IMG/VR virus record: IMGVR_UViG_3300025113_000005
Span: 1-59,813 of that record
Length of the DNA stretch: 59,813 bases
DNA from: a virus
Strand: one strand, 5' to 3'
Made by a program: the position numbers and the translations under genes. Positions within the stretch are counted from its first letter, which is position 1. Each line of letters opens with the position of its first letter. Under the pieces are notes generated by a model. That model did not search any database and was not told the DNA's origin. It was given only the letters and a program-made list of their open reading frames with translations. Positions 1,982-53,397 of the stretch are shown here, one piece after another.

Positions 1982-2218
1982 TCAAATCTGTCGATCTAGG
2001 AAGTAGCGAAGCAGCAGCTTTGCCTTCTCCCGTTCAGGAGCTGTTTGCCGCTCGTAGTTGTCCCAGTCCTTCAGGTTCTGCAGCTCTATCCGCACCTCGG
2101 TGAAGAATCGATCGTCGTGGATGCGACCCGCAAAGAAGTCCCAGGCTCCCTGCGCTGTACGCGCCATCCGTACTGGCGGGGTGATGGTGAGCGGGTTTGA
2201 CGGAAGATCTGGTGTCAT
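1982..2218 (-). CDS. hypothetical protein, 78 aa
   Basis: Start at 2218 (MTPDLPSNPLT) overlaps the stop of the RNA ligase gene as ATGA, so it is translationally coupled to it. The C-terminal half is helical and charged (PEREKAKLLLRYFLDRQI). No family recognised. Confidence 0.65.
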   Translation of the reverse strand: MTPDLPSNPLTITPPVRMARTAQGAWDFFAGRIHDDRFFTEVRIELQNLKDWDNYERQTAPEREKAKLLLRYFLDRQI

Positions 2219-3252
2219 CTCTTGACAAGTCCGTTCGGAGTGAAGCGCTGCCCGGCGCGCCAGTGCTTGGTGGTCTGGACGTGGCCGGCACGCACGTACT
2301 TGGCGACGCTGCTCTTGAAGTCGGCATACCTGAAGGACCTGGCCTTGCGAACGACATAGCCCTCGCGGACGCCCCATTCGACGGTGGTCAGGTCACACTC
2401 CGCGCGGATGGCCTTCTCGTCCCAGGTGCCGCGCCAGATGACCGGCACCGGGGTGATGCCGAGCAGCTCGAAGTACTCCAGCGTCTCGTCCCATGCCAGG
2501 CACTCATTGTGTTCCGTCCAGATGCTGAAGCCGAGGAAGTAGGACGGCAGGTCCGCGTACGGAATGGAGTGTTCCGCCCACAGGTTCTCACCGCATACTC
2601 GCCAGCCGGTGGGGAGGTTGTAGCAGACGTTCTCCGACAGGAATCGCTTGACCCAGGCGCGGTCCTCGCCGCCCCGGCTGTCGATCGAGCGGGCATGCAC
2701 GTGGCCGTCGGCGTAGGCGGTGGTGTTTTCACCGTCCATCTTGACCGAGATCACGACCTCCTCACCTTCGAACTGAGCGCAGCTCTTCAGCGCCTTGTCG
2801 TCGTCATGGATGCCAGGTGACCAGGGCAGGTGGAAGGTGCGGCCGTATTTGACATACGGCACGTAGAGGCTGAGCTTGCCGCCCTTGGCTAGGATCTTCT
2901 GGACGCTCTCGTCATGGAAGAGCTCGCCGTGGGTGCGGCGTCCATCCTCGAGAATGTAGTCGCCCCACTTGGTGATCGGCTGCTCAGGATAGAACTGGTC
3001 GGGGACGTGGACCGTGTGGATGCCGGCGGCGAGGCGGACGTCCTCCACTGAGAGCTCGGTCGTCTCGCACTGTAGGTGATGCTCGGCGCAGACCGAGGCG
3101 CCGTTGTCAAGATAGTATCCGCCGTCCGGCCAGAGCCGGCGCTCAATGACATGGTGGGCATCTTGAGCAGGTTGACCGCAGAAGACGCAGCGGTGCCCGT
3201 CCCTGGAAAGAACGCCTTCCCGAAACTGGTCGCGGGTGAGAAGCTTGGCCAT
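2215..3252 (-). CDS. HNH nuclease - RNA ligase fusion
   Basis: 345 aa. Residues about 1-60 look like an HNH zinc-finger nuclease (HRCVFCGQ, DAHHVIER, CAEHH). From about residue 90 there is an RNA ligase domain with nucleotidyl-lysine motif KMDGENTT, motif IV EGYVVRK and motif V KYVRAGH, most like the T4 Rnl2/Rnl1-associated RNA ligase group. The ligase would seal RNA breaks such as anticodon nicks made by host defence nucleases; the HNH part could cut or bind nucleic acid. The ATG at 3252 follows a TACAAT box by 5 nt, so the mRNA may be leaderless. Which substrate is used is unknown. Confidence 0.85.
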   Translation of the reverse strand: MAKLLTRDQFREGVLSRDGHRCVFCGQPAQDAHHVIERRLWPDGGYYLDNGASVCAEHHLQCETTELSVEDVRLAAGIHTVHVPDQFYPEQPITKWGDYILEDGRRTHGELFHDESVQKILAKGGKLSLYVPYVKYGRTFHLPWSPGIHDDDKALKSCAQFEGEEVVISVKMDGENTTAYADGHVHARSIDSRGGEDRAWVKRFLSENVCYNLPTGWRVCGENLWAEHSIPYADLPSYFLGFSIWTEHNECLAWDETLEYFELLGITPVPVIWRGTWDEKAIRAECDLTTVEWGVREGYVVRKARSFRYADFKSSVAKYVRAGHVQTTKHWRAGQRFTPNGLVKR

Positions 3253-3257
3253 AGTGC

Positions 3258-3263
3258 ATTGTA
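3258..3263 (-). promoter_or_regulatory. early-type -10 box TACAAT
   Basis: Minus strand CGTGATACAATGCAC followed at once by ATG of the ligase gene. The repeated GTTACA sequences upstream (3290-3315) may be -35 or activator elements. Confidence 0.6.
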
Positions 3264-3304
3264 TCACGGTTTTAACCATGATGCTGCCAAATATGTAACA
3301 AGGT

Positions 3305-3829
3305 CTAGGTTGTAACCTGCTTGAGTCGCTGCAGGACCTCATCGAACGTGGTCCTGCGCCAGCTTAGCTGAATGAATCGACGTGGCTTCATTGGTGGCTT
3401 GCGAACTACGCTGTGTATCTGAGATACATCAAGCAGGTACGTGTCACCGTCCGCCGCAGTAAAGGAGTCAATGAAGTCGAGGTCCTTTTCGTTCTTGTAT
3501 ATGTTGGACGTCGCCGCCCCTGGAAAGCGAATCGGAACGGCGCCTTCACGCACGTTCCAGAAGTTAGTGGTTGCGTCACCTGACTGGAAATAGCAGTTCA
3601 ACGCCGTGATGGTGGTGTGGTCGCGGTGCGGGGAAACCTGGTCGTTGCCAATGATCTCGACGTAGCGTATGGCATCAGGAAGCAGCACCCGCAGGTGCTC
3701 GAGAGGCGGTGGTTTGCCCAACACGCGGTAGTATGAGATCGCCCCGTAGGTCATGAAGTGCGCGCCCTTCCGCACCATGTTCACCAAAGAGATATCATAT
3801 GGGATCTTAGCAAACGGGGGTGACTGCAT
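3305..3829 (-). CDS. 2OG-Fe(II) oxygenase-like protein
   Basis: 174 aa. Facial-triad candidates are H and D in SPHRDHT and the distal His in SQIHSV, followed by an Arg-containing strand RRFIQLSW that would bind 2-oxoglutarate. Such enzymes hydroxylate or desaturate C-H bonds using Fe(II), O2 and 2OG. It starts the oxygenase cluster and is transcribed from a late promoter 30 nt upstream, facing the plus-strand gene at 3864. Stop codon is TAG. Substrate unknown. Confidence 0.7.
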   Translation of the reverse strand: MQSPPFAKIPYDISLVNMVRKGAHFMTYGAISYYRVLGKPPPLEHLRVLLPDAIRYVEIIGNDQVSPHRDHTTITALNCYFQSGDATTNFWNVREGAVPIRFPGAATSNIYKNEKDLDFIDSFTAADGDTYLLDVSQIHSVVRKPPMKPRRFIQLSWRRTTFDEVLQRLKQVTT

Positions 3830-3837
3830 GAGGGCCG

Positions 3838-3843
3838 TAAATA
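3838..3843 (+). promoter_or_regulatory. late promoter box TAAATA (plus)
   Basis: GTAAATAC on the plus strand, 20 nt before the ATG at 3864. It faces the minus-strand box at 3859-3865, so two late promoters overlap head to head. Confidence 0.55.
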
Positions 3844-3858
3844 CTGCATCGACAGGGG

Positions 3859-3865
3859 TATTTAT
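3859..3865 (-). promoter_or_regulatory. late promoter box ATAAATA
   Basis: Minus-strand late box, 29 nt upstream of the ATG at 3829. It overlaps the ribosome site and start codon of the plus-strand gene at 3864. Confidence 0.7.
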
Positions 3866-4715
3866 GAGTCAGCAGATGGACATCGGTCGTGAACCTAAGA
3901 GATCCCAGATAGCAGGGCAGTGGTTCGTTGACCTGGATCAATACGTTGACACCGAGCGGTTCGAGAGGTTGCATGAGAGAATGTGCGAAGGTATCGCCCG
4001 CTCCTGGCACCTCTCAGAGCCGGTCGTCATCGGGTCTAAGGAGTCGCAGTATGATATGACCCTTAGCGAGGTGGAGTTTGCCAAAAGCGAGCACCCCGAG
4101 GATGAGACGCTGAAGAGGCTTCTCTCCTACCAACATCGCGAGGCGGCGTACCAGTATGTCAGGTTTCGCTACCCAACTATGGCGCTGGGGCGCAAGATTC
4201 TGCTGCGTACCTATGTGGACTACCACAACGGCTTCGCTCGCAAGCACCTGGCCAGGCTGAACCATGACATGCCCGCCTACTCCTACTTTCCCGAGCTGAA
4301 GCAGTTCATCAGCGACCTGCCTATCTTCAGTGAGGTTGGGCGCGTCATCATTTTTCTGACCGACGGCAACGCCAAGGCCGAGATCCACTGTGACTACGCC
4401 GACGGCAAGAGCCGTAAGGATCAGTTCCTCTGGCTGAACCCGCGTAGGGCCAAGCGGTTCTTCGTGCTTGACACCGAGTTCAATAAGCGCTATCTAACGG
4501 GGATAGCAAACACATTTGACAACGCCTCGTGGCACGGTGGGGACCCATCACCGTATGCCACGTTCACGGTGCGTATAGACGGTCGCTTCAGCCAGAAGTT
4601 CCTAGATGCCTCTAACCTGGCAGAACATTATGAGCGGCCTCGAAAGCAGGTGATCGAACCCGCTGAAGCAGGTCGCGACCTGGGTGTGCAGCTGGCCAGG
4701 CACAGCGCAGCGTGA
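3864..4715 (+). CDS. 2OG-Fe(II) oxygenase-like protein
   Basis: 283 aa. The ATG at 3864 has an AGGGG ribosome site and a plus-strand late box upstream; longer in-frame starts lie over the opposing gene. The motif IHCDYADG supplies H-x-D, and ASWHGGDPSPYATFTVRIDG supplies the distal His and the 2OG-binding Arg, typical of the double-stranded beta-helix oxygenases. It lies opposite to its neighbours, and its last 104 nt overlap the end of the convergent gene 4612-5247. Substrate unknown. Confidence 0.65.
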   Translation: MSQQMDIGREPKRSQIAGQWFVDLDQYVDTERFERLHERMCEGIARSWHLSEPVVIGSKESQYDMTLSEVEFAKSEHPEDETLKRLLSYQHREAAYQYVRFRYPTMALGRKILLRTYVDYHNGFARKHLARLNHDMPAYSYFPELKQFISDLPIFSEVGRVIIFLTDGNAKAEIHCDYADGKSRKDQFLWLNPRRAKRFFVLDTEFNKRYLTGIANTFDNASWHGGDPSPYATFTVRIDGRFSQKFLDASNLAEHYERPRKQVIEPAEAGRDLGVQLARHSAA

Positions 4716-5247
4716 CGTCATACGGCTTGGGGTGGTTACCAAAGACCGCTCGATCAAACTCACTTGTGGGCAGCTCACCTGCCTTCACCTCCCCAAATGG
4801 GTAGATCTCGAAGCGAGGCCAGATCGCAGAGGTCTTCTGAGTGCGGGACGTCGTGCGAGCCCAGGCAGTGGGTAGCGACCACAGGATATTCTGACAGTCG
4901 TAGTAGCGACCGAAGGAGATGGCGCGCAGCCACAGCGCGTCCATTCCGTTTCGCTGATAGTTCCATGGTGCCGGCACCATGGGATTGGTGACCAGAAATG
5001 ACATCAGCCAGTGGTTGGAACAACAGGCTGGAAACGTCTGAACGAGGTAGGCCACAAGCTGCTGCGCCTCATTGAACGCCATCCAGGTGACCGTGCGCTG
5101 GCTTTTCAGTGAGCCTCTTAGTGCCTCCAGCCCCCGCTCAAGTTCAGAGGAGCTGAGCTGCTGCTTACCTACCTGACGCTGTGCGGTAAAGATCTCAACG
5201 GCCAGCGGCAGCAGCTGAGAGGTCAGACGCTGGATCGTGAACTTCAT
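4612..5247 (-). CDS. probable GNAT-like acyltransferase
   Basis: 211 aa. Predicted alternating strands and helices (TVTWMAFNEAQQLVAYLV, a bulky middle, then NILWSLPTAW) suggest a GNAT or FeeM-like acyltransferase fold, but no acetyl-CoA loop is clear. Start ATG overlaps the stop of 5247-5555 (TAATG). The C-terminus runs antisense over the end of the plus-strand oxygenase and stops at TAG. Its place between oxygenases and a desaturase makes an acyl-transfer step plausible, which is inference. Confidence 0.45.
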   Translation of the reverse strand: MKFTIQRLTSQLLPLAVEIFTAQRQVGKQQLSSSELERGLEALRGSLKSQRTVTWMAFNEAQQLVAYLVQTFPACCSNHWLMSFLVTNPMVPAPWNYQRNGMDALWLRAISFGRYYDCQNILWSLPTAWARTTSRTQKTSAIWPRFEIYPFGEVKAGELPTSEFDRAVFGNHPKPYDVTLRCAWPAAHPGRDLLQRVRSPAFEAAHNVLPG

Positions 5248-5555
5248 TACGTGATTGAGACTGTACGGACGGTGTTGATGTCATTCCTGACATCATAGAT
5301 AGCGCGATCCGCAAAGAAGTTCGGAAGCACCTGAAACAGTTCATCCAAGAGAGTCGTAAGCTGATCCTCATCGACGTATTTGGCAACGGAGGTGTGCACC
5401 AAGCCATCCTCAGACAGGGTGAACACAGGTGGTTCAGCAAAGTTTGGTGTGTTGGAAACCAAAGAAATAAAGGTCGAGCGGACAAGCGGCACCGTGAAGA
5501 TGTAGAACGGGGTATCAGAACTTTGGCGCTGCTGGGTGGTTGTAACAGTAATCAT
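5247..5555 (-). CDS. hypothetical protein of oxygenase cluster, 102 aa
   Basis: No family recognised. Begins MITVTTTQQRQ and is predicted mixed alpha/beta with a helical segment DQLTTLLDELFQVLPNFF. Overlaps the desaturase stop (ATGA) upstream and the 4612 gene downstream, so it is part of the same translation-coupled run. Confidence 0.65.
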   Translation of the reverse strand: MITVTTTQQRQSSDTPFYIFTVPLVRSTFISLVSNTPNFAEPPVFTLSEDGLVHTSVAKYVDEDQLTTLLDELFQVLPNFFADRAIYDVRNDINTVRTVSIT

Positions 5556-6361
5556 GTTGAGCTCCTACTAGGTGCGGTGGTCTTGACGGCCGTAGCCAAT
5601 CCAATCTTCTCGAGCAGCTGGATAACCAGGTAACTCACATCAAGCTCGCCGCTCCGCAGTCCAAAGCGAGCTGACCCAGGGTAGCGGTGGTGATTGTTGT
5701 GCCAGCCCTCACCAAAGACCAGGTAGCCCATGATCGGGTTGTTCTGGCTGTCATCACGCAGCGCGAAATTTCGGTAGCTTACGACGCTCTTCTTGTGGCC
5801 GAACCAGTTCAGTGCGTTGCTGACGGTGATGGAGACGAAGATCGGCAGCGCATACACGTACACAAAGGCGTTCAGACTTAGAAGAGCCAAGACCAGGCCG
5901 TAGGCTCCCAGAATGGCGAAGTAGTAGCGGTGCCACCAGGCGTAGTACCTGGTGCGAGCGATGTCACGGATGCCCTGCGTGGAGACGCGTGGGTACACGC
6001 CGAAGAACGTCTTCCACACTAAACCTGGTGGGTGCGGGTCTCCAGGTAGGTCAGCGAATCGGTGGTGCTGACGGTGGGTCATGACCCACATTATCGGAGA
6101 TCCAGTCCCAGCTAGGCAGGCGAAGGTGACGAACAGCTTCTCCACCCAGGGGTGGAACGTTACCGCCTTGTGCGTGAGGGCCCGATGATAGGTGGTGCTG
6201 ATGCCCAGACAGATCAAGCAGAAGTACGTAAACACCGACGCAGCCAACCATGGTAGTGAAAATGTGGCGTAGAGCGGCGATAGCAGAAGCGCCCCGAACA
6301 GCACCAGGTTGAAGCCCAGCAGCGTGAATGGGTTGTTTCCCTTGACGAGGTGCTTGATCAT
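5552..6361 (-). CDS. membrane fatty-acid (acyl) desaturase
   Basis: 269 aa with several hydrophobic segments. It has the three His boxes of the di-iron acyl-CoA/acyl-lipid desaturase family: YHRALTH, THRQHHR and WHNNHHR, plus GHKK. These enzymes insert a double bond into acyl chains in the membrane, usually delta-9. The ATG at 6361 overlaps the upstream stop (ATGA) and sits 4 nt after a TAAATA box (6366-6371), so a leaderless late transcript is possible in addition to readthrough. The neighbouring oxygenases suggest a lipid-modification pathway. Confidence 0.85.
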   Translation of the reverse strand: MIKHLVKGNNPFTLLGFNLVLFGALLLSPLYATFSLPWLAASVFTYFCLICLGISTTYHRALTHKAVTFHPWVEKLFVTFACLAGTGSPIMWVMTHRQHHRFADLPGDPHPPGLVWKTFFGVYPRVSTQGIRDIARTRYYAWWHRYYFAILGAYGLVLALLSLNAFVYVYALPIFVSITVSNALNWFGHKKSVVSYRNFALRDDSQNNPIMGYLVFGEGWHNNHHRYPGSARFGLRSGELDVSYLVIQLLEKIGLATAVKTTAPSRSST

Positions 6362-7071
6362 GCTGTATTTACGACCGACTCATAGTGCCGGCGCAGCCCG
6401 TCTTTTCCACCGTACCTGGTCTCGATGGCTGCCAGGTGCTCGTAGTAGCGATCAAAGGTGCCTGGTGCGATGTAGTTAGGGTTCTTCTTGAAGGTAGGGG
6501 CGTACTGAATGGTCCAGCGCCTATCGATTACATCTGAGATGATGTGCAGGCGGTCAGTTGTGCCAAGGTTGAAGGCCGCGTGCGGGGTGATGTTGTCAAA
6601 GTCATACAGCTGTCCAGCCTCCATCTTTACGACCTCGGCCTCGTGTGTCTCCTCGTCAAAGTACACGTGACCGCAGCGGTCGTTGGTGACCAACACGGCG
6701 TGTACCCGGTGCGAGAGCGCGTGATACAGCCGAGGGTCGATGTGCGGGTTCACCACCCGGTCAGGTACATTACGCACCACCTGGGATCGAAATACCACAT
6801 GGTTTGGGAAGTACCTGGTGGTCAGCAGGGCGTGGTACGGTGCCATGGCGGTGGCCAAGGCCTTGGACGGTAGCACCCCGCTGTAGTAGTTGTGCTGCTC
6901 GTTGAAGTAGCGGGTTTCCGCGTCGTAGCGGTTGCACGCGTCAAAGAAGGCCTCCTCCTTGGTCAGCGACTCAGGAGCCTCTAGATCCACGGCTCGAGTG
7001 ATTGTCCAAAGCTCCTCGAACAGCTGCGGTGATAGGGTGTCCAGCACCTGAATGTGAGGGCTGAGCTTCAT
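6358..7071 (-). CDS. aspartyl/asparaginyl beta-hydroxylase-like 2OG oxygenase
   Basis: 237 aa. NPHIDPRLYHALSHRVHAVL gives the H-x-D and the conserved LSHRVH strand, and ITPHAAFNLGTTDRLHII the distal His and Arg. This layout fits the Asp/Asn beta-hydroxylase fold family (Asp_Arg_Hydrox), which also includes LpxO, the lipid A acyl hydroxylase. One of several such paralogs in a row. Stop and start are coupled by ATGA on both sides. Confidence 0.75.
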   Translation of the reverse strand: MKLSPHIQVLDTLSPQLFEELWTITRAVDLEAPESLTKEEAFFDACNRYDAETRYFNEQHNYYSGVLPSKALATAMAPYHALLTTRYFPNHVVFRSQVVRNVPDRVVNPHIDPRLYHALSHRVHAVLVTNDRCGHVYFDEETHEAEVVKMEAGQLYDFDNITPHAAFNLGTTDRLHIISDVIDRRWTIQYAPTFKKNPNYIAPGTFDRYYEHLAAIETRYGGKDGLRRHYESVVNTA

Positions 7072-7718
7072 TTCCAGTAGTCGATCTCTGTCTGCTTGTT
7101 GCCTGCGTGGTACGTCGTGATGACGTTCACTCCCTGATCAAGTAGCGCGTATCCTTCTTCCTCAAGAAAATCGATGATGATATGTGAGCGCGGTGTAGGC
7201 CCGTTGTTGGTGGCGCGGTGCATAAACATGTTGTTGATCTCGTATGCCGTTCCTATCGCGAAGTGCTTAGAGCAGGCCCTCCGCCCAAGCATGTAGTTGT
7301 AGGTAGCGCCTGGATTGGTGATGATTGGGATGTGGACCTTATGCGAGAGGCTCTGGTAGATGTAGCTGTCGATGTGCCAGAGCAGGGTGGCCTGTGGTGG
7401 TAGGGTGGCCACCTGGACGAGTAGCGGGCAGGCGGTTGGATAGAAGCCACGCAGCCACTCCACCTGTGGCTCTACGATATCCAGCAGCTCCTGGGCTCGA
7501 TTGCCATAGGTGGCATTGTGGGTATCCACGCTGTACATCTTGATGCTCGGGTTCATGGCAATCAGCCGATGCGTTCCTATGAATACCTTCTCGCTCACGA
7601 GCGCCTGGGGTGAAAGCAGATCAAAGGCACCACGTACCGTGGAAGCCAGCTCCTCGACACCAGGTACACCGTCTAGCTGCCTAAATGGTACCTCGCGGTT
7701 CTGTTGGTACACCTTCAT
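7068..7718 (-). CDS. aspartyl/asparaginyl beta-hydroxylase-like 2OG oxygenase
   Basis: 216 aa. LLWHIDSYIYQSLSHKVHIP provides H-x-D and the family's SHKVH strand; FMHRATNNGPTPRSHIIIDF provides distal His and Arg. It is clearly a diverged paralog of the flanking gene at 6358. Coupled by ATGA to both neighbours. Substrate unknown. Confidence 0.75.
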   Translation of the reverse strand: MKVYQQNREVPFRQLDGVPGVEELASTVRGAFDLLSPQALVSEKVFIGTHRLIAMNPSIKMYSVDTHNATYGNRAQELLDIVEPQVEWLRGFYPTACPLLVQVATLPPQATLLWHIDSYIYQSLSHKVHIPIITNPGATYNYMLGRRACSKHFAIGTAYEINNMFMHRATNNGPTPRSHIIIDFLEEEGYALLDQGVNVITTYHAGNKQTEIDYWK

Positions 7719-8326
7719 CGATGCACCTTTGACACACCCTTGGTATCCTTGACGTCAACCACTAGGTGCGTACGAGCCGTATCACCGAGGTTGTCCACCA
7801 TATGGCGGTAGTTGACGTTGATCAGAAAGACGTTGTTCGCCGGCAGGTGGGTTGCCTTTTCTTCAGAGTGAAAGTGGGCCTGCTCATTTGTCTCAATGAC
7901 GATGTGCAGACGCAGAATGGTCTTGGCTGGTGACCCGTCGGTGTGCCAGTTGCTTGCCGCGCCTGGAACAAGCTGAATGAGGCGAGCGCGACAAGGCTGG
8001 AAACCAAGCTCCGTCGCCTGGCCGATAAGGCGCCGCAGCTCGTCGCTCGCTGCCTCGGTGAAGGTAAGGTGCTCAGAGCTACGGTGGTAGCCAGCTCTCG
8101 CTGCACCAAGGCTATCAAAGTAGACCTTCCCATTAGATAGTGTCTTCATGAACACGCTACCATCTACCCAGCCATCCCTGTAGCTACCTGACCGGCTCAT
8201 CACGCTCCACCCGTTGAACATCTCGCCACCAGCTTTAGGAAGCGTAGCCTCAAGCTGGCGAACATGGGCCCGCAGCGCGTCAAAGTCAGGAGCGAACAGC
8301 TCAGTGATGTTCTCGAATTGAATCAT
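7715..8326 (-). CDS. 2OG-Fe(II) oxygenase, Asp-hydroxylase-like
   Basis: 203 aa. NWHTDGSPAKTILRLHIVIE and NYRHMVDNLGDTARTHLVVD carry the H-x-D, distal His and Arg. The same order of motifs as in its two downstream neighbours shows common descent. Translationally coupled to both neighbours. Confidence 0.75.
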   Translation of the reverse strand: MIQFENITELFAPDFDALRAHVRQLEATLPKAGGEMFNGWSVMSRSGSYRDGWVDGSVFMKTLSNGKVYFDSLGAARAGYHRSSEHLTFTEAASDELRRLIGQATELGFQPCRARLIQLVPGAASNWHTDGSPAKTILRLHIVIETNEQAHFHSEEKATHLPANNVFLINVNYRHMVDNLGDTARTHLVVDVKDTKGVSKVHR

Positions 8327-8868
8327 ACCAGCAGCCTCCCCGGATCCGGTGTCAGGCGAAGCGTGAGCGTAATACGAAAGTCCCTGATCAGCGGGTTACA
8401 GAGCACCGAGTGAGGCTCACCGGTTCGAATGATGGTTGGACGGTCAATGCACACCCGTGTTTCTTCCTTGGCATCCAGTTTGTCCAGCCACCAGAAGGCG
8501 TGCCCGTTCTGGAGAAGCCGGCGCTGGATCTTGGTCTTCGGCGCTGAGAAGAAGTAGGTGAATGAGCCTTCGGTGTTGCGCACCGGAAGTTGAAGTCGAG
8601 CTGCTACCCCAAACATATCGTCGACATGGATGTTGTCTAGGTAGGACCCACCATGAGGACGCGCTAGAATGAAGGCTGAGTACTGGATCGTCCAGCCGTG
8701 CTTCAACAAGGCACGGGTAAGCTCAGGGACCTGCGCCTTCAGCGTCGCGATGGGATAGGTGTTCCAGAAGAAACCCGTGCCAAAGAAACCGGCACCGTCA
8801 ACTACCTCGTTCAGCTTTGGTTGAATGATGTCCCAGTTTTCAAGCTGGACGTACTTCCAGTAGAGCAT
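8323..8868 (-). CDS. 2OG-Fe(II) oxygenase-like protein
   Basis: ATG at 8868 (MLYWKYVQLENW) preferred, 29 nt after a late box at 8898-8904. A TTG at 8892 lies 5 nt after the same box and would be a leaderless start. DNIHVDDMFGVAARLQLPV gives H-x-D, and GEPHSVLCN with FRITLTLRL the distal His and Arg. First minus-strand gene of the run 8868 to 4612. Confidence 0.65.
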   Translation of the reverse strand: MLYWKYVQLENWDIIQPKLNEVVDGAGFFGTGFFWNTYPIATLKAQVPELTRALLKHGWTIQYSAFILARPHGGSYLDNIHVDDMFGVAARLQLPVRNTEGSFTYFFSAPKTKIQRRLLQNGHAFWWLDKLDAKEETRVCIDRPTIIRTGEPHSVLCNPLIRDFRITLTLRLTPDPGRLLV

Positions 8869-8897
8869 GCTTGCAGGTTCAGTTGAAGCCAATGAGG

Positions 8898-8904
8898 TAT
8901 TTAT
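8898..8904 (-). promoter_or_regulatory. late promoter box ATAAATA
   Basis: Minus-strand late box that heads the oxygenase operon. A plus-strand TAAATA lies 7 nt away at 8911-8916, forming a second head-to-head pair. Confidence 0.65.
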
Positions 8905-8910
8905 GACGCG

Positions 8911-8916
8911 TAAATA
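8911..8916 (+). promoter_or_regulatory. late promoter box TAAATA (plus)
   Basis: Followed by CCTA and then ATG at 8921. In T4-type promoters transcription starts 5-6 nt after this box, which would put +1 on the start codon. Confidence 0.55.
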
Positions 8917-8920
8917 CCTA

Positions 8921-9919
8921 ATGCTTCCCTACACCTTGGATGACCACTTCACCTTCGGTTATGGCTCGGGGCTGTTCAACCCAGGTGAAAAATCAGTCGA
9001 TGCGCGGCTGTGGTGTGGGTATACCCGGAGCACTCGTGAACCAGGGTCATTCAAAGAGGAGTGCGTAAACACCGCTCGTTTGATCGGTGCCAGAGCAGCA
9101 GAGCTAAACCGACCTGTGTACGTCTGTCTATCTGGTGGTATGGACAGTGAGGTCGTCGTGAAGGCCTTTCTTGCTGCTGAGGTTCCATTCACGACCATTA
9201 CCTTTCGTTTCAACGGCGGCCTCAATTCCCATGAGCTACGTTTCGTAAACCGATTTGTTGCTCGTCACCAACTTAAGCATGTCTTCTTCGACATGTCCAT
9301 CCTTGATTGGATCAAATCCGATGAAGCAGCTGACATGTTTCATGGTGCGCAGGCCGCCGCCTTCAGCTTAATGCCGCACATGAAGATTCTCAGTCACGTA
9401 TGGTTCGAGCTGGGTGGTCTGCCCGTTCTTGGTAATGGGGACATCTACCTCGAGAATGGTGATGAGGGTTGGAAGTACGTCGAGCTGGAATACATGCTGA
9501 GCTGGTTTCGCCATGCCATCAGATTTCGTATTCTTGGCGCCATTGGCTTCTTTCAGTTTACGCCGGAGATAACGCTAGCCATGCTTCGTGACCCTCGTAT
9601 CGAGCGCCTTGGCCGTAACGTGGATTCATACGCCAACAAGATATACCAGACATCGAGATTTATCAAGTACAGCATCTATCGTACGCACTGGCCTGATCTT
9701 GCTATGCGCGCAAAGTACAGCGGCCAGGAGTTCGTGAAGGAAGAATACGAGGAACGAGCGGCTGAGCTACTTGCCCAGCGTTCTGATCAGTTCATCGATA
9801 AATTCCAGTTGGATTATGTCAGCTTTAGGGCCATGCTGGAACCTGACGAAACAGCTTACCTTGCAGGTGTCGCTCAACAACCTCTGCATAAGGTAGATCG
9901 AACGCCATTTGAAAGTTGA
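8921..9919 (+). CDS. asparagine-synthase-like PP-loop ATPase A
   Basis: 332 aa. Start at 8921 (MLPYTLDDHFTFGYG) matches the paralog at 10389 residue for residue in length up to FGYG; an ATG at 8903 would add six residues. The ATP-pyrophosphatase loop is LSGGMDSEV, as in asparagine synthase, QueC and related adenylating enzymes that activate a carboxylate or carbonyl for amide or amine transfer. There is no N-terminal glutaminase domain, so ammonia or another amine donor must come from elsewhere. Ends inside the convergent gene 9825-10376. Confidence 0.75.
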   Translation: MLPYTLDDHFTFGYGSGLFNPGEKSVDARLWCGYTRSTREPGSFKEECVNTARLIGARAAELNRPVYVCLSGGMDSEVVVKAFLAAEVPFTTITFRFNGGLNSHELRFVNRFVARHQLKHVFFDMSILDWIKSDEAADMFHGAQAAAFSLMPHMKILSHVWFELGGLPVLGNGDIYLENGDEGWKYVELEYMLSWFRHAIRFRILGAIGFFQFTPEITLAMLRDPRIERLGRNVDSYANKIYQTSRFIKYSIYRTHWPDLAMRAKYSGQEFVKEEYEERAAELLAQRSDQFIDKFQLDYVSFRAMLEPDETAYLAGVAQQPLHKVDRTPFES

Positions 9920-10376
9920 ATCGAGGAACGCTAACTGAGTTGGTAACACCATGCAGCGCCTGAAGGTTGATGATCGCAGGCATTTCGTCCAGGTGCAGAG
10001 AAAAGCTAGGTTGCAGCTGGGCACGGGTATCCCAGAACAAAGTAGGGGCATAGCCTTCAACAGGAAATAGATGATCGATGATTGCCGTCTGTCTTGCACC
10101 GGTTGGACCATCAACATGACGCTCGAGCTCGGTATTGGGTTCGATGTACATAATGAATGGGATGAATGGCACCGTCACAATAAGTCGCAGGCGGCTGAGT
10201 TCCGGGGCCATGATGCCGAAGAACTCAGGGCGCATGCGTGACAGACCGTTGTAGTGCTTCTCAACAGATGAGATGTGCTGCTCAATGACATCATGGCGTC
10301 GAAGGAGGTAGTTCACTATTCTCTTCTTCGCAGGCTGCGGCAGCAGCGGGAAACCTAGTGACAGATATGGACGCAT
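9825..10376 (-). CDS. 2OG-Fe(II) oxygenase-like protein
   Basis: 183 aa. LERHVDGPTGARQTAI gives H-x-D and LQALHGVTNSVSVPRFNFQ the distal His and Arg. It sits between the two plus-strand PP-loop genes and overlaps the end of the first by 95 nt. The ATG follows a TAAATA box by 4 nt with no ribosome site, so the mRNA is probably leaderless. Confidence 0.65.
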   Translation of the reverse strand: MRPYLSLGFPLLPQPAKKRIVNYLLRRHDVIEQHISSVEKHYNGLSRMRPEFFGIMAPELSRLRLIVTVPFIPFIMYIEPNTELERHVDGPTGARQTAIIDHLFPVEGYAPTLFWDTRAQLQPSFSLHLDEMPAIINLQALHGVTNSVSVPRFNFQMAFDLPYAEVVERHLQGKLFRQVPAWP

Positions 10377-10380
10377 GAGG

Positions 10381-10386
10381 TATTTA
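10381..10386 (-). promoter_or_regulatory. late promoter box TAAATA with start codon 4 nt downstream
   Basis: Minus strand GTAAATACCTCATG. No ribosome site fits between the box and the ATG at 10376. Confidence 0.5.
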
Positions 10387-10388
10387 CT

Positions 10389-11324
10389 TTGACCACCTAC
10401 TCATACCAGAATCAACTGCAGTTCGGATACGGCCCGCAGGCGTTCAATCGTCGGGATCATGGGCTGGATCTGTGGTACAACTTCAATCGCGCTGAGCGAC
10501 AACCCATCTCATTTGTCGATGAGCTGAAGCGCACCGCTCAGGTGGTGTACGAGCAGGCACGTGCCATGGGTCGCCCCATTTACCTGCTGCTTTCTGGCGG
10601 GCTGGATAGCGCCGTTATGGTGAAGGGCTTCAAGGCCGCAGGGGTGCCTTTCAAAACTGCCACATACGTGTTCAACGATGGGCTAAACGAACATGAGATG
10701 CAGTACATACGTCCATTTGAGGCCGCTGAGAACCTCGATGCCGTTCATCTCAATATGGATATTCGAAAATGGATGCACGATGGTGAGGCGCTCGATCTCT
10801 TCCTACGTACCGATTCATGGGAAACAGGAACTCTGCCGCTGATGAAGCTCATGGGTCACGTGTGGAGCGAACTGGGTGGTCTGCCGGTGTTTGGTGGTGG
10901 TGACATCGATATAGTCCAAAAGGAGGGTGCATGGTACTACGGGCGGTATGAGAGCTTCCTTTCGCGTTACTGGTACTGTGACATCGCTGGCATCTCGGAT
11001 TTCGTGTCATTCTTCCAACATACCCCTGAGCTGACGCTTGCCATGCTTTCAGACCCGCTGATCGCGAGGGCTGCGACTGGACAGGATCAGCTGGCGAATC
11101 GAGTGCTGCGCAACCTAAAGATCGTGAAGTTCAAGGTGTATCATCGAGACTTTCCAGACCTGCAGCGACGCATCAAGTTTGGTGGCACTGAGCTCATTCA
11201 CAGCTGGCTTAGCCCACTTGAGGACAGCTGGCGCGCCAAGCGCCAGCTGAGCTATGGTGATCTTTGGATGATCCCATATGATGAGCTAATGGAGAAGCTC
11301 AGACCGCTTGGGTCAGTTTACTGA
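10389..11324 (+). CDS. asparagine-synthase-like PP-loop ATPase B
   Basis: 311 aa from a TTG start with GAGG 8 nt upstream. PP-loop LLSGGLDSAV; further shared blocks with the gene at 8921 (FGYG, AGVPF, NDGLNEHEMQ, GHVWSELGGLPVFGGGD, FFQHTPELTLAMLSDP) show a duplication. It has no glutaminase domain. Probably activates a carboxyl group on the product of the oxygenase cluster or on a macromolecule; the target is unknown. The last 12 nt overlap the convergent gene at 11313. Confidence 0.75.
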   Translation: MTTYSYQNQLQFGYGPQAFNRRDHGLDLWYNFNRAERQPISFVDELKRTAQVVYEQARAMGRPIYLLLSGGLDSAVMVKGFKAAGVPFKTATYVFNDGLNEHEMQYIRPFEAAENLDAVHLNMDIRKWMHDGEALDLFLRTDSWETGTLPLMKLMGHVWSELGGLPVFGGGDIDIVQKEGAWYYGRYESFLSRYWYCDIAGISDFVSFFQHTPELTLAMLSDPLIARAATGQDQLANRVLRNLKIVKFKVYHRDFPDLQRRIKFGGTELIHSWLSPLEDSWRAKRQLSYGDLWMIPYDELMEKLRPLGSVY

Positions 11325-11813
11325 CGACGTCGAAGGCGGATAGAGGCGCTGCTGCTGACGAGTGAGCCCCTCATTCAGCTCCTTCCACGTCTTAGGCTGC
11401 TCCATCGGTGGAGCAGATGCAGGTCGAGCTGGAGCTGTGATCACCTCGGCAGCTGGAGCTCCGCGACCGTGCGCGAGCGGCGGAGGTGGGGGCGGTGAAG
11501 CCATGGCTCTTGGAGATGGAGCTGCCAGCGGAACTGGGACTGGAATCGGCGCAGCGCCTGGTTCTAGCCCTGCGGCAACCTTGTTGCTAAGCAGAGCGAT
11601 CATCGCCTGCTGAAACCCCGCGTTCTGCGCAAGCTCGCGAGCGAGCGCCTCATTACGCGCCTCAAGCCGAGCGACGTGCTCCTTCAGCGCCGTTTCCTTG
11701 GCGTAGCGGCTGTCCAGCTGAAAGAAAAATGGAATGGCGACAACGAGAGCTGATACGACGGCAGCCGCCGTCATAGGCACACCCAACCGCTTCAGCTCAT
11801 CAAAGATGGCCAT
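11313..11813 (-). CDS. membrane-anchored coiled-coil, Pro-rich protein
   Basis: 166 aa. One N-terminal membrane segment (about residues 15-33, AAVVSALVVAIPFFF), then a heptad-like helix (KEHVARLEARNEALARELAQ) and a long Pro/Ala tail with a run of Pro. The layout resembles an inner-membrane spanin, and a tiny lipoprotein gene follows upstream at 11835, but Pro-rich extension and order are atypical. Spanin role is a guess. Confidence 0.6.
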   Translation of the reverse strand: MAIFDELKRLGVPMTAAAVVSALVVAIPFFFQLDSRYAKETALKEHVARLEARNEALARELAQNAGFQQAMIALLSNKVAAGLEPGAAPIPVPVPLAAPSPRAMASPPPPPPLAHGRGAPAAEVITAPARPASAPPMEQPKTWKELNEGLTRQQQRLYPPSTSSVN

Positions 11814-12347: not shown

Positions 12348-13277
12348 TTACAGAGGGAATAGGGCGGTGCCGCACTCGCGGCAGTGCTTGAAGCCCGAGC
12401 GGTTGGAGGTCCCACACGTCGGGCAGTCAATGCGGGTCTTGACAGTAACGGGCCTCGTGACCTTGTCCTCGCCCAGCTGACCAAGCAGCTTCAGTACCAT
12501 GACGTGCTTCTGCCCGTCGGTCGGGAACCACGCGCCGTGCTGGAACTGCTGGTTGCTCTCCGATCCCGGCACGGTGATGCCGGCGTCGCTGACCTGGTTG
12601 AAGTAGGCAGCCTGAGCGGCGTTCTGCGGAATGCCGGCAGTTCCTGAGGCAGCTGACAGCGAGGCTGAACCGAGAGACGTGCCTCTGCCCCGCGAGGCGC
12701 TTGACTTCAGCGTCGTCGATGCCGCGTTCGCGGTGGTGGTTTTGCTGTTAGATACGTCGCCAATCGAATCTGAGACACTGGTGTTGAACGAGTTAGCGGT
12801 TGAACCGAAAGCACAGTCAGTTGTCGAGCTGTACCACGGGCCTTCTCCCCAGTAGTACGGATACGGGCGGCGGCGCCAGTACTCGTCGACATACGTGCGC
12901 TTGATGGTCTCGATCTTCGCGGCCTGCTGCTCGAATTCAAACTCCACTCGGATCAGGCCATCCTCGGCCTGAATGCCGCGAGGGCCATTCTCGATGCGAG
13001 TGGTACGCTCGATGAACCGAAACCGGTTGCCGTTTGACAGGTTGCCGTTCTTGATGAACCGCTCCAGGTCGATCGACCCGTTGGCTGGCACGATCAGGCT
13101 GGTGCCCTCCGTGGCGTCCACGCCGTCAATTGAGACCCGTACAAGGGATCGCAGGGCGTTTAGGTTCTTGAAGTGGAGGGAGTACTCACTGCCAAAGGGG
13201 ATGAGGACAGTGTCGCCTTGCTCGCGTAGGACGCGGCCATTGTGCTTGACGGCGCAGACAAGCTTTTGCTGATACAT
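12348..13277 (-). CDS. conserved phage protein with C-terminal zinc ribbon
   Basis: 309 aa from ATG 13277 ([11 protein letters not shown]). The N-terminal 115 residues form a beta-rich domain seen in many large phages ([18 protein letters not shown]). The middle is Ser/Thr/Asn-rich and low in complexity, and the tail has a zinc ribbon CPTCGTSN...CRECGTA. Function unknown; a surface or virion-associated role is possible. A perfect late promoter lies 92 nt upstream. Confidence 0.75.
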
Positions 13278-13368
13278 CACGTATCTTCCTTTCCCAACAT
13301 CTTGAAACCGGTCACCCACTAAGACCGCGAAGTTAGCCAGTTACGGCAGTGGAGTTGCGTTGGTAGAC

Positions 13369-26949: not shown

Positions 26950-27726
26950 CTACTTGCACGACTTGTAGGTTGATAGCAGCACCATCTCCCGCAGGTCGGC
27001 TGCGGTGCATAGTCCGCTGACGTTCAACCGCTGCAGGTCAAAGACATTCGTGCCCCGTCCGTTCAACGTCAGCGAGTGAACCCCGGCCACCGAGGTGTAG
27101 CCTAGCTTCGCGAAGGCAGGCAGCAGCGCTGGAAGCGAGTGGCCAAACGGCCAGGCAAATGACACAACTTCCCGGCGTGTGAGATCCTGCAGCGTAAACT
27201 TCGAGAGCAGTGCCTCGCTGATGGCGTCGTTGGGGCTGGGTGGAACGAGGTTGCCGGCAGCGTCCATGAAGTGCGAGTGCGAGTGCGAGCCGATCTCCAT
27301 GCCAGGTATACGTGCTAGGAGCTGCAGCTCCCCTATTGAGAGGTAGCGCGGGTCACTGAAGAACCCAGTCAGCACGTAGAACGTGGCGGTAAGGCTGCGC
27401 TTCTCGAGATCCTGAGCTACCTCGAGGTGCTCCTTCCACCCGTCGTCGAAGGTCAGTACGACCGTTCTTGGTGGAATGGGGCGGTGGTTGACAATGAGGG
27501 CCTGCAGCGCCGCGATGGTGATTGTCGAGTAGCCTTCCTGCTTGAGAACGTCAAGGTGCTCACGCAGGCGGGTCGGCGAGATGACGGTATCGCCAGGCGG
27601 CTTGGAGTCGGTGACCTGGTGGTAGATCAGGACGGGCACCGTGCTTTCCGATGGTGGCCTCTGACTGTAACCTTGAGCCAGAACTGGGAGCGCCAGAAGA
27701 GAGAACAGCAACGCGACGAGCTTCAC
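26950..27726 (-). CDS. polysaccharide deacetylase (NodB domain), secreted
   Basis: 258 aa with signal peptide (MKLVALLFSLLALPVLA). NodB motifs: VLTFDDGWKEH (metal Asp) and IGSHSHSH (metal His pair). The VPVLIYHQV start and length resemble PgaB/IcaB-type deacetylases that remove acetyl groups from poly-GlcNAc. Near a GT2 polysaccharide synthase, it may modify the same polymer in the periplasm. Stop TAG. Confidence 0.85.
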   Translation of the reverse strand: MKLVALLFSLLALPVLAQGYSQRPPSESTVPVLIYHQVTDSKPPGDTVISPTRLREHLDVLKQEGYSTITIAALQALIVNHRPIPPRTVVLTFDDGWKEHLEVAQDLEKRSLTATFYVLTGFFSDPRYLSIGELQLLARIPGMEIGSHSHSHFMDAAGNLVPPSPNDAISEALLSKFTLQDLTRREVVSFAWPFGHSLPALLPAFAKLGYTSVAGVHSLTLNGRGTNVFDLQRLNVSGLCTAADLREMVLLSTYKSCK

Positions 27727-28073
27727 TTGATGAGTACCTCAGCGTCAGAGCAGCAGTCGATGAGCAGGTCCATGACATCAGGCTGGATGTTCACGCAGCC
27801 CGCGGTGACCTTGATTCGTGAATCGGCGCTTGGTGAGAGCAGCCGAGTTGGGCGGTTTTGCCCAGGAACATCGATGACTGGGTGAATGCCCCAGAGCTCA
27901 GTGGCCGTCTCCTGAAAGACCAGGATGTTGCCGCCATAGCCAGGAGTGGTGGTGGAGTAGTGCGTCAGGCGAAAGTTGCCACGCGGCGTTGCCTCACCGA
28001 CCAGTGCAGGGTAGCACTGGCCAGCGAAGCAGATGAGCGCCGCCGCGAGGTCAATGAACACGTGCGCAAACAC
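27723..28073 (-). CDS. L,D-transpeptidase-like protein
   Basis: 116 aa. Hydrophobic N-terminus, GIHPVID, and KVTAGCVNIQPDVMD with the candidate catalytic Cys; TRLLSPSADSRI precedes it as in YkuD-type enzymes. ATG overlaps into the NodB gene stop (ATGA). Paralog of 24433-24777. Expected to edit peptidoglycan 3-3 links or tether proteins. Confidence 0.65.
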   Translation of the reverse strand: MFAHVFIDLAAALICFAGQCYPALVGEATPRGNFRLTHYSTTTPGYGGNILVFQETATELWGIHPVIDVPGQNRPTRLLSPSADSRIKVTAGCVNIQPDVMDLLIDCCSDAEVLIK

Positions 28074-28081
28074 GCTTCACC

Positions 28082-28342
28082 TTAGCCCTTCTTCTTTTTC
28101 TTGGGTGGTTCAGGAAGTGGAGCAGGTCTCGGCACCGAAGCCGCTGGTGCCGGAGCGGCAAGCGCCTTCGGTACAGCGGCCGGCGGAGGTGCTGGGGCGA
28201 CCTGTACCACTGCTGGTGGGGGTGGGGGTGGAGGCTCGTAGCTGACAGCAGCAAGTCCTGCTCCGAAGAGCCCCGCACCGACAACGGGCCAGCGCATCGC
28301 AAAGTTCACGATCAGCGCGTTACCGGTAACTGGCATCGTCAT
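28082..28342 (-). CDS. membrane protein with Pro-rich tail, 86 aa
   Basis: One hydrophobic segment (MRWPVVGAGLFGAGLAAV) followed by a Pro/Ala/Val-rich tail with seven Pro in a row and a final KKKKKG. Could span the periplasm like a TonB or spanin linker. Start context has GGAG. Confidence 0.6.
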   Translation of the reverse strand: MTMPVTGNALIVNFAMRWPVVGAGLFGAGLAAVSYEPPPPPPPAVVQVAPAPPPAAVPKALAAPAPAASVPRPAPLPEPPKKKKKG

Positions 28343-28354
28343 GGCGATGGCTCC

Positions 28355-28798
28355 TTATTTTCTGGCACCGTCCCAGCCGAACCAGTAGCTGGCATAGACC
28401 TGGACGATGGTGCCGTCGGCGTTGCTGCCCTTGAAGTACTTCTGGTAGACGCCCTGGACACCGAGGTCCACGGTGCCGTTGTCGAAGTACCGCGTCATCT
28501 TCACACCGATGGCAGGGGTGACGTAGTTGTTGTAGACCAACCCTTCGCTGTCAACAGTGTAGCTGGCAGCAATGTAGGTGTTGAGAGCCCACTCCTTGCG
28601 CTCACCGAAGCGAGCCCAGATGGCGCCCTGTTCGATGCGTCCTTGGTAGAGCAGGTTCTCGCGGTCAGCGCCCTGCGTACCTGACGGGTACGAGAGCACG
28701 CCCCAGGTGGAGCCCGGCAGCGCCAGTGGCTTGAGGCCCTCGGCGAGGGCAGAGGTGGAGGCCATCACGATGGCCGAAGCAAGCAGCAGCTTCTTCAT
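28355..28798 (-). CDS. small outer-membrane beta-barrel-like protein
   Basis: 147 aa, signal peptide MKKLLLASAIVMASTSALA. Mature chain alternates polar and aromatic residues (NTYIAASYTVDSEGLVYNNY, VQVYASYWFGW) and ends near an aromatic residue, as in outer-membrane barrels. It resembles the C-terminal domain of exopolysaccharide porins such as NfrA, but this is a pattern match only. Next to the GT2 synthase gene. Confidence 0.55.
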   Translation of the reverse strand: MKKLLLASAIVMASTSALAEGLKPLALPGSTWGVLSYPSGTQGADRENLLYQGRIEQGAIWARFGERKEWALNTYIAASYTVDSEGLVYNNYVTPAIGVKMTRYFDNGTVDLGVQGVYQKYFKGSNADGTIVQVYASYWFGWDGARK

Positions 28799-28824
28799 TT
28801 CAAATTTCCTTTAGGAGTTGAGGG

Positions 28825-29874
28825 TTAGGAAAAGTTATACCGCTTGACCTTGTTCCAGACAAGCAGTTCTTTCTTGAAGATGGTTATCTCAAGGAAAGAC
28901 CGGAAAAACGTGTAGGGATTGATGAAGTACGCAACCCAGAAGTAAGCTGGAAACTTGATGATCACATCCCACCGACGGGTACGACGAGCGGTGTACATCA
29001 CCAGGAGGAAGGTGATGGCAACATGGAGTGCCAAACCACCCAGCACGAATGGAGGAAAGAAGATCCCAATAACAAGCGCCCACAGCAGCGGGTTGAAAAG
29101 AAGCGCGTCAAGGGACATGACGATCATGTAGAGGTCCACTGCCTGTTTCTTGGTTCGGAGAGAGAATACGCGGTGCTTTCGGACAACCTGCCAGAAACCG
29201 CGGTACCAGCGCAGCATCTGCTTGGTATAGTCCCGAACGGTGAGCGGGTCCTGTGTCCAAACAAATGCTTCAGGAGTATATTTTACCTTACCACCAGCGC
29301 GGTGCACCTGCATGGTCAGGTCCATGTCCTCTGCGAGGGTGGTGCTGTCAATCTCCAGGGTCTTGAGCACAGCGGTGCGATACATGGACGCGCAACCAGG
29401 GGCGACGAAGACGCAGCCCCAGTTGTCCTGCCCCACCTTCGCGACGTCCTGCCCGTAGGTGTAGTCGAAAGCACGCATCGCAGAGACGAGGTGATCACCT
29501 CGATCGGACTTCACCTGTCCCAGGAAGAGCGCGACGTCCGGATCATTTCTCGCCGCCGCGTAGAGAGCATTGTAGAAGTAGATGTCGACCTTGGTGTCGC
29601 CGTCCATGAAGATGACGTAGTCGTAGCGATCGAGCAGCTTGAAGTGCTCTAGCGCGGCGCGCTGCGCCGCCGCCTTGCCGCCGTTCTTCTCAACCGTCAG
29701 CACGTTGACCCTCATTGCCAGTGCCAGCTCCGCGGTACGGTCAGTCGAGCGGTCGTCCACTACGTAGATGTCCTCGCGTCGCACGTCAGCAGCTACCAGC
29801 GCGGCGATGGTGCCCTGGATAACGGGCTCCTCGTTGTAGGCGGGAACCAGTACGGCGATGGTTAGATCAGTCAT
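28825..29874 (-). CDS. GT2 processive polysaccharide synthase (PgaC/NfrB-like)
   Basis: 349 aa from ATG 29874. VLVPAYNEEP, VVDDRSTDRT, MDGDTKVD (DxD), TLAEDMDL and KQMLRWYRGFWQ (QxxRW) are the hallmarks of cellulose, poly-GlcNAc and hyaluronan synthases; two to three membrane segments follow. It polymerises a beta-linked glycan from UDP-sugars at the inner membrane. Context: deacetylase, outer-membrane barrel, glucanase. A phage-made surface glycan is the simplest inference. Confidence 0.85.
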   Translation of the reverse strand: MTDLTIAVLVPAYNEEPVIQGTIAALVAADVRREDIYVVDDRSTDRTAELALAMRVNVLTVEKNGGKAAAQRAALEHFKLLDRYDYVIFMDGDTKVDIYFYNALYAAARNDPDVALFLGQVKSDRGDHLVSAMRAFDYTYGQDVAKVGQDNWGCVFVAPGCASMYRTAVLKTLEIDSTTLAEDMDLTMQVHRAGGKVKYTPEAFVWTQDPLTVRDYTKQMLRWYRGFWQVVRKHRVFSLRTKKQAVDLYMIVMSLDALLFNPLLWALVIGIFFPPFVLGGLALHVAITFLLVMYTARRTRRWDVIIKFPAYFWVAYFINPYTFFRSFLEITIFKKELLVWNKVKRYNFS

Positions 29875-29878
29875 TGGT

Positions 29879-30196
29879 TCAGCGAAGATCAGCAGTTGGT
29901 TGAAGAACAGGTCGTCGGATGCGAACGAAGCCGTGGATGACCAACCACGAGCGGTCAACCTCCTTCACTCCAAGTGGAACCAAGAAGGACCGCCCTGTCT
30001 TGTTCTTCAAGACCTTGCGGGCATCGCAGTCATACACCCAGACCGCCGCGAGGCTCAGTTTTGTCGGCACATGTATCAAGCCGTTGTTGTCCAGCCAGCA
30101 CGGGACGAGAGCCTCCTCACCATTTTCCAGCTTGACGTGGACCTGGTGGGTTTCAGGTGCCTGCACCTGCCTGACGATGATGTCACTGGCTGTCAC
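29879..30196 (-). CDS. hypothetical protein, 105 aa
   Basis: GTG start inside the end of the preceding gene. MTASDIIVRQVQAPE resembles the start of 31664-32059 (MTASDIVKQEM). Mixed beta protein (HQVHVKLENGEEALVPCWL). No family recognised. Confidence 0.6.
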   Translation of the reverse strand: MTASDIIVRQVQAPETHQVHVKLENGEEALVPCWLDNNGLIHVPTKLSLAAVWVYDCDARKVLKNKTGRSFLVPLGVKEVDRSWLVIHGFVRIRRPVLQPTADLR

Positions 30197-51237: not shown

Positions 51238-51687
51238 TTAACGAGATAAGCTGCTCGAGGATCGTAGTTCGTTGCGCACCTGCATTAAGATCTTGCCGAG
51301 GTGGTTGTCGCCAACTCCGTTGCAGACTCCCCAGTAGATGTCGTTCCACGAGTTTGTTTCTTCTAGGTAGAGGTCCTTAGTTTCAAGGAGCCACTGCCTG
51401 AGTGGATCAGCCGCGAACTTCTGTCGGGTGAGGTCCAGCATGACCTCAAACTTGCGTCCTTCATGCCAGCCGGGTGGAGCTTGCAGCTCGTGAGAGAGCC
51501 TCTTGGCCTCTCGACCGGTCTTGAGGCTGGCAAAGAGGCGTCGAATGCTGAGGTCATCGGTCTTCGCGGCCTGGTAGGCGGCCTCAGTTGTGTGGTACTT
51601 GAGACCATCTAGCACCACCTCAACAAGGTGGAAGTTACTGAGGAAGCGAAAGGGGCCAAAGAACCCGTAGATGCCGGGCGGCTTCAC
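51238..51687 (-). CDS. NADAR-family protein (ADP-ribose/N-glycosidase type)
   Basis: 149 aa. FLSNFHL, YHTTEAAYQAAK, SWNDIYWGV and GDNHLGKILMQVR are the conserved NADAR (YbiA-like) blocks. Members cleave N-glycosidic bonds in riboflavin intermediates or remove ADP-ribose from guanine in DNA and NAD-linked products. In a phage it could undo host DarT-type DNA ADP-ribosylation or other NAD-based defence (inference). ATGA coupling to the next gene. Confidence 0.9.
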   Translation of the reverse strand: MKPPGIYGFFGPFRFLSNFHLVEVVLDGLKYHTTEAAYQAAKTDDLSIRRLFASLKTGREAKRLSHELQAPPGWHEGRKFEVMLDLTRQKFAADPLRQWLLETKDLYLEETNSWNDIYWGVCNGVGDNHLGKILMQVRNELRSSSSLSR

Positions 51688-53322: not shown

Positions 53323-53397
53323 TGGCCCCCGCTGTCGGATTCGAACCGACGACCCGACGTTTTAGAGGCATCCGCTCTACCACTGAGCTAAGCAGGG
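53323..53397 (-). tRNA. amber suppressor tRNA (CTA)
   Basis: Loop CTCTAAA gives anticodon CTA, which pairs with UAG. Acceptor CCCTGCT/AGCGGGG, regular D-arm, T-arm GTCGGTTCGAATCCGAC, discriminator G and CCA encoded. One C-A mismatch closes the anticodon stem. Amino acid identity unknown. Confidence 0.8.

Follow-up and report, generated by a model that had tools for sequence, protein, structure and literature searches.

A recurring phage cassette of 2-oxoglutarate oxygenases, a desaturase and PP-loop proteins with a possible role in acyl tailoring

Phages are familiar as carriers of single auxiliary metabolic genes. Among bacterial systems, ornithine-lipid pathways bring together a GNAT-like acyltransferase, Asp_Arg_Hydrox enzymes and di-iron hydroxylases, polyyne pathways use several desaturases plus an acyl carrier protein (ACP), and the lipid A hydroxylase LpxO belongs to the Asp_Arg_Hydrox family. 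On the viral side, PMC7678222 has passages on an acyl-CoA desaturase of Lake Baikal phages, and the gene lists of marine phage host-recognition islands include Fe(II)-dependent oxygenases (PMC3909814). Here we describe a twelve-gene cassette of 8.0 kb in the virus record IMGVR_UViG_3300025113_000005. The window, that is, the whole stretch of DNA analysed, comprises positions 1 to 59,813 of this record (59.8 kb; G+C 58%; 29 tRNA genes). The cassette, at about 3305–11312, is bordered by an RNA ligase gene on one side and by the gene at 11313–11813 on the other. It holds seven candidate 2-oxoglutarate (2OG) oxygenases (families AAH, with the Asp_Arg_Hydrox domain, OX4, OX5, OX29 and OX58), a desaturase (DES), a GNAT-like gene (GNATx), a gene for a 102-aa protein (f13s) and two PP-loop genes (PPL).

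A first-pass annotation had suggested a biosynthetic cluster for the oxidation and amidation of a lipid, lipopolysaccharide (LPS) or small molecule at this place. Its gene set stood, since all the genes that it named are open reading frames (ORFs) in the window; the 102-aa gene at 5247–5555, the insertion and the near-virus-restricted PP-loop family described below were not part of it. We see an even chance that the cassette was acquired horizontally and makes or tailors an oxidised, amidated and unsaturated acyl compound, probably an acyl-amide or a lipo-amino-acid.

Recurrence, linkage and insertion of the gene set

Scans of viral contigs with a single protein, either the second PPL or one AAH protein, gave no matches, nor did tblastn of PPL against phage records, so that alignment-based scans were needed. 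The desaturase alignment led to 80 loci and the PP-loop alignment to 6. After near-duplicates had been merged, 65 loci remained, including the window, L027 and L028. Each of the nine families of the window is found at 3 to 65 of these 65 loci, the count of 65 for the desaturase largely reflecting selection by the desaturase scan. Because that scan selects for desaturases, OX4 was used as an independent anchor, and all eight OX4 loci carry DES, AAH, PPL and GNATx within about 10 kb. Two of the eight lie on contigs that had already been found (L115 and L030) and the other six represent about two lineages, so the scan covers about four independent lineages. Anchoring on PPL likewise returned a desaturase at six of six loci. 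In a control, none of the nine families was present at any of 20 loci anchored on the RNA ligase (350 kb).

L124/L115 and L125/L030 have counterparts of every or almost every cassette family, with 24–59% identity to the window. Gene order and strand are strongly shuffled between loci, and the genes alternate in strand. Within the recurring combinations PPL-GNATx and AAH-ACP-OX4, the genes overlap or lie a few bases apart. The enzyme set is thus linked and recurs across many further phages, most of them little studied, and the scattered, unlinked arrangement that would have spoken against the cluster proposed in the first-pass annotation was not what the comparative search returned. The module lies on phage genomes, jumbo phages among them, as indicated by genes for a T4-type gp23 capsid protein and/or terminase on contigs of 156–453 kb, the size range that this check covers, many smaller contigs falling outside it. 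Ratios of nonsynonymous to synonymous substitution rates (dN/dS) of 0.02–0.32 were obtained in nearly all measurable comparisons of module genes, made between close relatives and not on the window genes; the module genes appear to be mostly under purifying selection.

Desaturase-family ORFs form arrays at some loci: L053 has eight of them and L110 six, in each case within 20 kb. Two candidates were rejected. A desaturase match in Acinetobacter phage MD-2021a has neighbours (tryptophan synthesis, a B12 transporter, a two-component system) that look bacterial chromosomal, and the PP-loop proteins at L134 and L135, both in a related 343-kb phage, are distant relatives with no desaturase or other module genes nearby.

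The cassette is an insertion relative to related phages. Among the 20 related phage loci found with the RNA ligase, L020 and L005 have relatives of the genes at 11313–11813 and 12348–13319 directly adjoining the ligase, with no cassette between them; the gap between the two flanking genes is about 28 bp in L020, compared with 8 kb in the window. The G+C content of the cassette genes is 49–58.5%, mostly lower than the approximately 60% of their neighbours. The trait is sporadic in the phage group of the window: a search of 17 relatives' records for PF05118 found it in two, namely G014, with one weak match, and the 358-kb phage G008. The latter has a similar but different cluster, located elsewhere than the insertion site of the window, with two AAH genes, a desaturase, a GNAT-like gene, an epimerase, an aldehyde dehydrogenase, a QueC-like PP-loop protein and two further ORFs with H-x-D/H motifs, as judged by eye.

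Enzyme families of the cassette

The features are collected in Table 1; nine of the twelve genes are on the minus strand and three (starting at 3864, 8867 and 10389) on the plus strand.

Table 1. Features of the cassette in window coordinates
Feature	Position	Strand	Observations
Whole cassette	3305..11312		Insertion between RNA ligase gene and gene 11313–11813; flanks adjacent in L020/L005
2OG oxygenase OX29	3305..3829	-	H68 D70 H139 R150 invariant (n=6); family at 6 distinct loci; hhalign to OX5 1.4e-12
2OG oxygenase OX4	3864..4715	+	H175 D177 H224 R237 invariant (n=14); 40% identity to L115
GNAT-like protein GNATx	4612..5247	-	Family profile against solved GNATs 1.6e-3 and 2.2e-3 (weak); 17-member family
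Conserved 102-aa protein f13s	5247..5555	-	Family at 9 distinct loci; comes after desaturase in window, L124/L115 and L125/L030
Membrane di-iron fatty-acyl desaturase DES	5552..6361	-	PF00487 FA_desaturase 9e-18; three His boxes conserved
2OG oxygenase AAH (Asp_Arg_Hydrox)	6358..7071	-	PF05118 30.4 bits, above cut-off; 40% identity to L115
2OG oxygenase AAH	7068..7718	-	PF05118 19.9 bits, below cut-off of 22.6; triad aligned with family
2OG oxygenase AAH	7715..8326	-	PF05118 38.6 bits, above cut-off
2OG oxygenase OX5	8323..8868	-	H89 D91 H161 R173 invariant (n=21); model pLDDT 91 matches 2OG oxygenases
Divergent spacer	8869..8920		Face-to-face TAAATAC late-promoter-like motifs at 8911(+)/8903(-)
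PP-loop ATP pyrophosphatase PPL, first copy	8921..9919	+	SGG-DS motif; PF00733 23.5 bits, above cut-off
2OG oxygenase OX58	9825..10376	-	H87 D89 H142 R152 invariant (n=3); hhalign to OX5 2e-9
PP-loop ATP pyrophosphatase PPL, second copy	10389..11324	+	Model pLDDT 94; nearest folds asparagine synthetase and beta-lactam synthetase

In all seven oxygenases proposed from their H-x-D...H...R pattern, the triad is invariant or nearly so in the relatives; in the AAH alignment H, D and H are invariant and the Arg is kept in most sequences. The three AAH proteins matched no NCBIfam family, and the OX29, OX4, OX5 and OX58 proteins of the window matched no Pfam family. By profile–profile comparison, the triads of these four families superpose on Asp_Arg_Hydrox or on each other (E 1e-4 to 1e-12), and OX4 has a weak match to the proline oxidase 1e5r (E 0.025). 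The OX5 model matches the solved 2OG oxygenases PtlH (6e-4), AspH (1e-3) and others, with TM-scores that are modest, about 0.4–0.54 on the query among the few best matches. A double-stranded beta-helix fold is predicted for OX5 via its model and for the other oxygenases via profile alone. For the start of OX5, the ATG at 8868 seems preferable to the TTG at 8892. In a profile search, AAH comes closest among solved proteins to L-proline cis-4-hydroxylase (3e-18) and to a "beta-hydroxylase" (1e-14), a result that points to an amino-acid moiety no less than to a lipid as the substrate. Far from the cassette, at 56259–56834, lies an eighth gene for an oxygenase, this one of the 2OG-FeII_Oxy_3 family.

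The desaturase retains all three of its proposed His boxes; its profile is closest to acyl-CoA desaturases (4zyo at 3e-16), and it shares 57–59% identity with the L115 and L030 proteins. GNATx is the weakest enzyme assignment in the cassette: the ORF exists and its family profile resembles GNATs weakly, but the window protein alone has no Pfam match. In relatives, its gene often adjoins the PP-loop gene. Comparison of f13s with solved structures gave a single weak and implausible match.

Both PP-loop proteins, recognised earlier by their SGGxDS motifs, belong to one family of 28 sequences with an SGG-DS motif. The first gene probably starts at 8921, where the alignment of its relatives begins, within an ORF open from 8867. 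In the 311-aa PPL protein the PP-loop motif is at residues 69–74, and a Pfam scan shows that a glutaminase-like N-terminal domain is absent. The predicted fold matches asparagine, beta-lactam and carbapenam synthetases, and also NAD synthetase, LarE and TtuA; because the TM-scores are low over the whole structure, reaching no more than about 0.4, the assignment is secure for the PP-loop synthetase core only. Matches to QueC and thiolase are weak. When a profile from a 7-sequence PPL alignment, a method relying on short conserved patterns, was run against 84,980 prokaryote genomes, at least two weak matches were obtained, and among the matches listed neither stands beside other cassette families. 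Judged from the matches listed, the family appears close to virus-restricted, which falls short of proven absence from prokaryotes.

The paired late promoters of the first-pass annotation held up in part. Besides the motifs in the divergent spacer, a second facing TAAATA pair is present at 3838(+)/3864(-), and TAAATAC is enriched about 12-fold within 100 nt upstream of called genes in the window, where an excess of sigma-70 promoters was looked for and not found. TAAATAC is likely a late promoter element, and late expression of the cassette would be consistent with these motifs.

Apart from the cassette, the ORF at 2215–3342 (start probably 3252) fuses an HNH-like N-terminal part to an RNA ligase domain, and its relatives are found in Caulobacter phages and other large phages. 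A NADAR-domain protein is encoded at 51238–51687, and the tRNA genes include a tRNA-Pyl with anticodon CUA at 53323–53397 (ARAGORN), which may be an amber-suppressor-like tRNA.

A possible acyl pathway and its alternatives

ACP genes with a DS[L/I] attachment motif adjoin module genes in several relatives: the order is AAH-ACP-OX4 in L129–L131, DES-ACP-DES in L117, ACP-DES in L113, DES-ACP in L066 and ACP-GNATx in L048. Among the other proteins encoded in related clusters are TauD, Rieske, radical-SAM and B12-binding radical-SAM proteins. Since these ACP genes adjoin desaturase, oxygenase and GNAT genes, and some relatives carry a ketoacyl synthase, a lipid or acyl substrate is favoured for the window cassette, by analogy with its relatives. 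Of the three kinds of substrate originally suggested, LPS or lipid A does not find support, the nearest solved AAH relatives being the two hydroxylases named above. The suggested amidation is plausible because the PPL model resembles asparagine and beta-lactam synthetases.

Enzyme classes and gene linkage are well supported, and from them we infer an order of steps, a substrate, a product and a role. A carrier-bound acyl chain would be supplied, in the window phage probably by the host ACP. The membrane desaturase, whose class is clear, would add a double bond to it, and up to seven 2OG oxygenases would carry out hydroxylation or further oxidation, acting on the acyl chain, on an amino-acid unit joined to it, or on both. 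As their folds suggest, PPL might then activate a carboxylate by adenylation and couple it to an amine in the manner of asparagine or beta-lactam synthetase, and the GNAT-like protein might transfer an acyl group. The product may act on or from the infected cell, for instance as a metabolite that is released or as an envelope lipid in altered form. As the gene families occur in new combinations from one phage to the next, the variant made probably differs between phages.

Several observations weigh against such an acyl pathway. The ACP family PF00550 occurs in just 14 of 38 related records and ketoacyl synthase in 8 of 38, with some copies far from the module. There is no ACP in the window record, which is a fragment, and ketoacyl synthase did not turn up in the window, although no search aimed at it was made. 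The identity of GNATx depends on weak profile matches and its proposed acyl donor on gene adjacency alone, while the best structural relatives of the AAH proteins act on amino acids. For f13s, the comparison of L034 with L035 gives a dN/dS above 1, and dS is saturated in several other comparisons. Finally, sequence alone reveals neither substrate nor product.

Modification of the host envelope is unlikely, but it would account for part of the data. The set would then hydroxylate and desaturate lipid A, ornithine-type aminolipids or other membrane lipids, for example blocking superinfection. Asp_Arg_Hydrox membership and the acyl-CoA type of the desaturase are in line with this, as is the enzyme combination of ornithine-lipid pathways, and a polysaccharide deacetylase and a GT2 glycosyltransferase elsewhere in the window (26950–29958) possibly have a surface-polysaccharide function. 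However, the cassette has no LPS-specific enzyme, AAH is closest to amino-acid hydroxylases among solved structures, and seven oxygenases with two ligase-like proteins exceed the needs of known lipid A or ornithine-lipid tailoring.

A hot spot gathering unrelated single-gene morons with no shared pathway would explain why order and strand are so highly shuffled between loci. It is rather improbable in view of the linkage of the same families from independent anchors, the repeated tight pairs PPL-GNATx and AAH-ACP-OX4, and the purifying selection.

Post-translational modification of phage structural proteins, above all tail fibres, has a slim prospect. Proteins can be substrates of AspH-like enzymes, Fe(II)-dependent oxygenases are among the host-recognition island genes mentioned at the outset, and a related cluster directly adjoins tail-fibre genes in L034 and in the pelagiphage Mosig (EXVC030M, MT647606). 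The window cassette, in contrast, adjoins the RNA ligase gene and not tail genes, and the desaturases (up to eight, in L053), ACP and ketoacyl synthase would be left unexplained. Modification of tRNA or DNA, with the PP-loop proteins as QueC-, TtuA- or MnmA-like enzymes, is very improbable: the weak QueC and thiolase matches, the 29 tRNA genes and a QueC-like protein in the L027 cluster speak for it, but the best PPL folds are asparagine and beta-lactam synthetases, and desaturases and ACP have no place in it.

The acyl-tailoring pathway would belong to phage auxiliary metabolism, with a real chance of being something new in kind. Literature word searches returned no description of the module, many journals and preprints being outside their coverage. 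More tentatively, the cassette could be one instance of a combinatorial pathway for natural products or lipids, largely confined to viruses, in which a carrier-bound acyl chain, desaturases, many 2OG oxygenases, an AsnB-like ligase and a GNAT are recombined in different phages and yield diverse small molecules during infection; this is possible, but doubtful. If true, a recurring multi-enzyme acyl pathway would open up chemistry from a new source and give phages a new means of reshaping infected cells or of signalling from them. Judged by the one family PPL, such a pathway would be largely absent from sequenced prokaryotes, and the compact 8-kb gene set makes it testable by expression and metabolomics.

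Comparison with known systems

At the level of single enzymes, the nearest PPL folds are asparagine, beta-lactam and carbapenam synthetases, from which PPL differs in having no N-terminal glutaminase-type domain (311 aa compared with about 500) and, unlike them, in being nearly absent from prokaryote genomes among the matches listed in the one profile scan. The AAH proteins share the triad of L-proline cis-4-hydroxylase and AspH (profile 3e-18), but in the phage they form short subfamilies in tandem. At the level of pathways, a polyyne cluster combines a fatty acyl-AMP ligase with desaturases and ACP; the window is without ACP, and the AMP-binding family of the fatty acyl-AMP ligase type is present in 5 of 37 related records. 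Compared with both polyyne and ornithine-lipid pathways, the window set is rich in 2OG oxygenases and its PP-loop family is different.

The closest phage counterpart is found in Pelagibacter phage Mosig, where Asp_Arg_Hydrox, FA_desaturase, GNAT and TauD genes stand side by side. This region differs in lying beside tail fibres and in being annotated gene by gene only; no PP-loop gene of the PPL family was detected in the Mosig stretch examined, and a word search of the genome announcement found no mention of "desaturase" or "auxiliary". With the lipid desaturase genes of cyanophages and Lake Baikal phages, as far as the relevant passages describe them, the window shares a phage-encoded fatty-acyl desaturase. 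In those passages of PMC7678222 the Lake Baikal desaturase is treated as a single auxiliary gene, whereas that of the window sits among nine recurring families, the set adding to a lone phage desaturase oxygenase, ligase-like and transferase-like genes and, in relatives, ACP.

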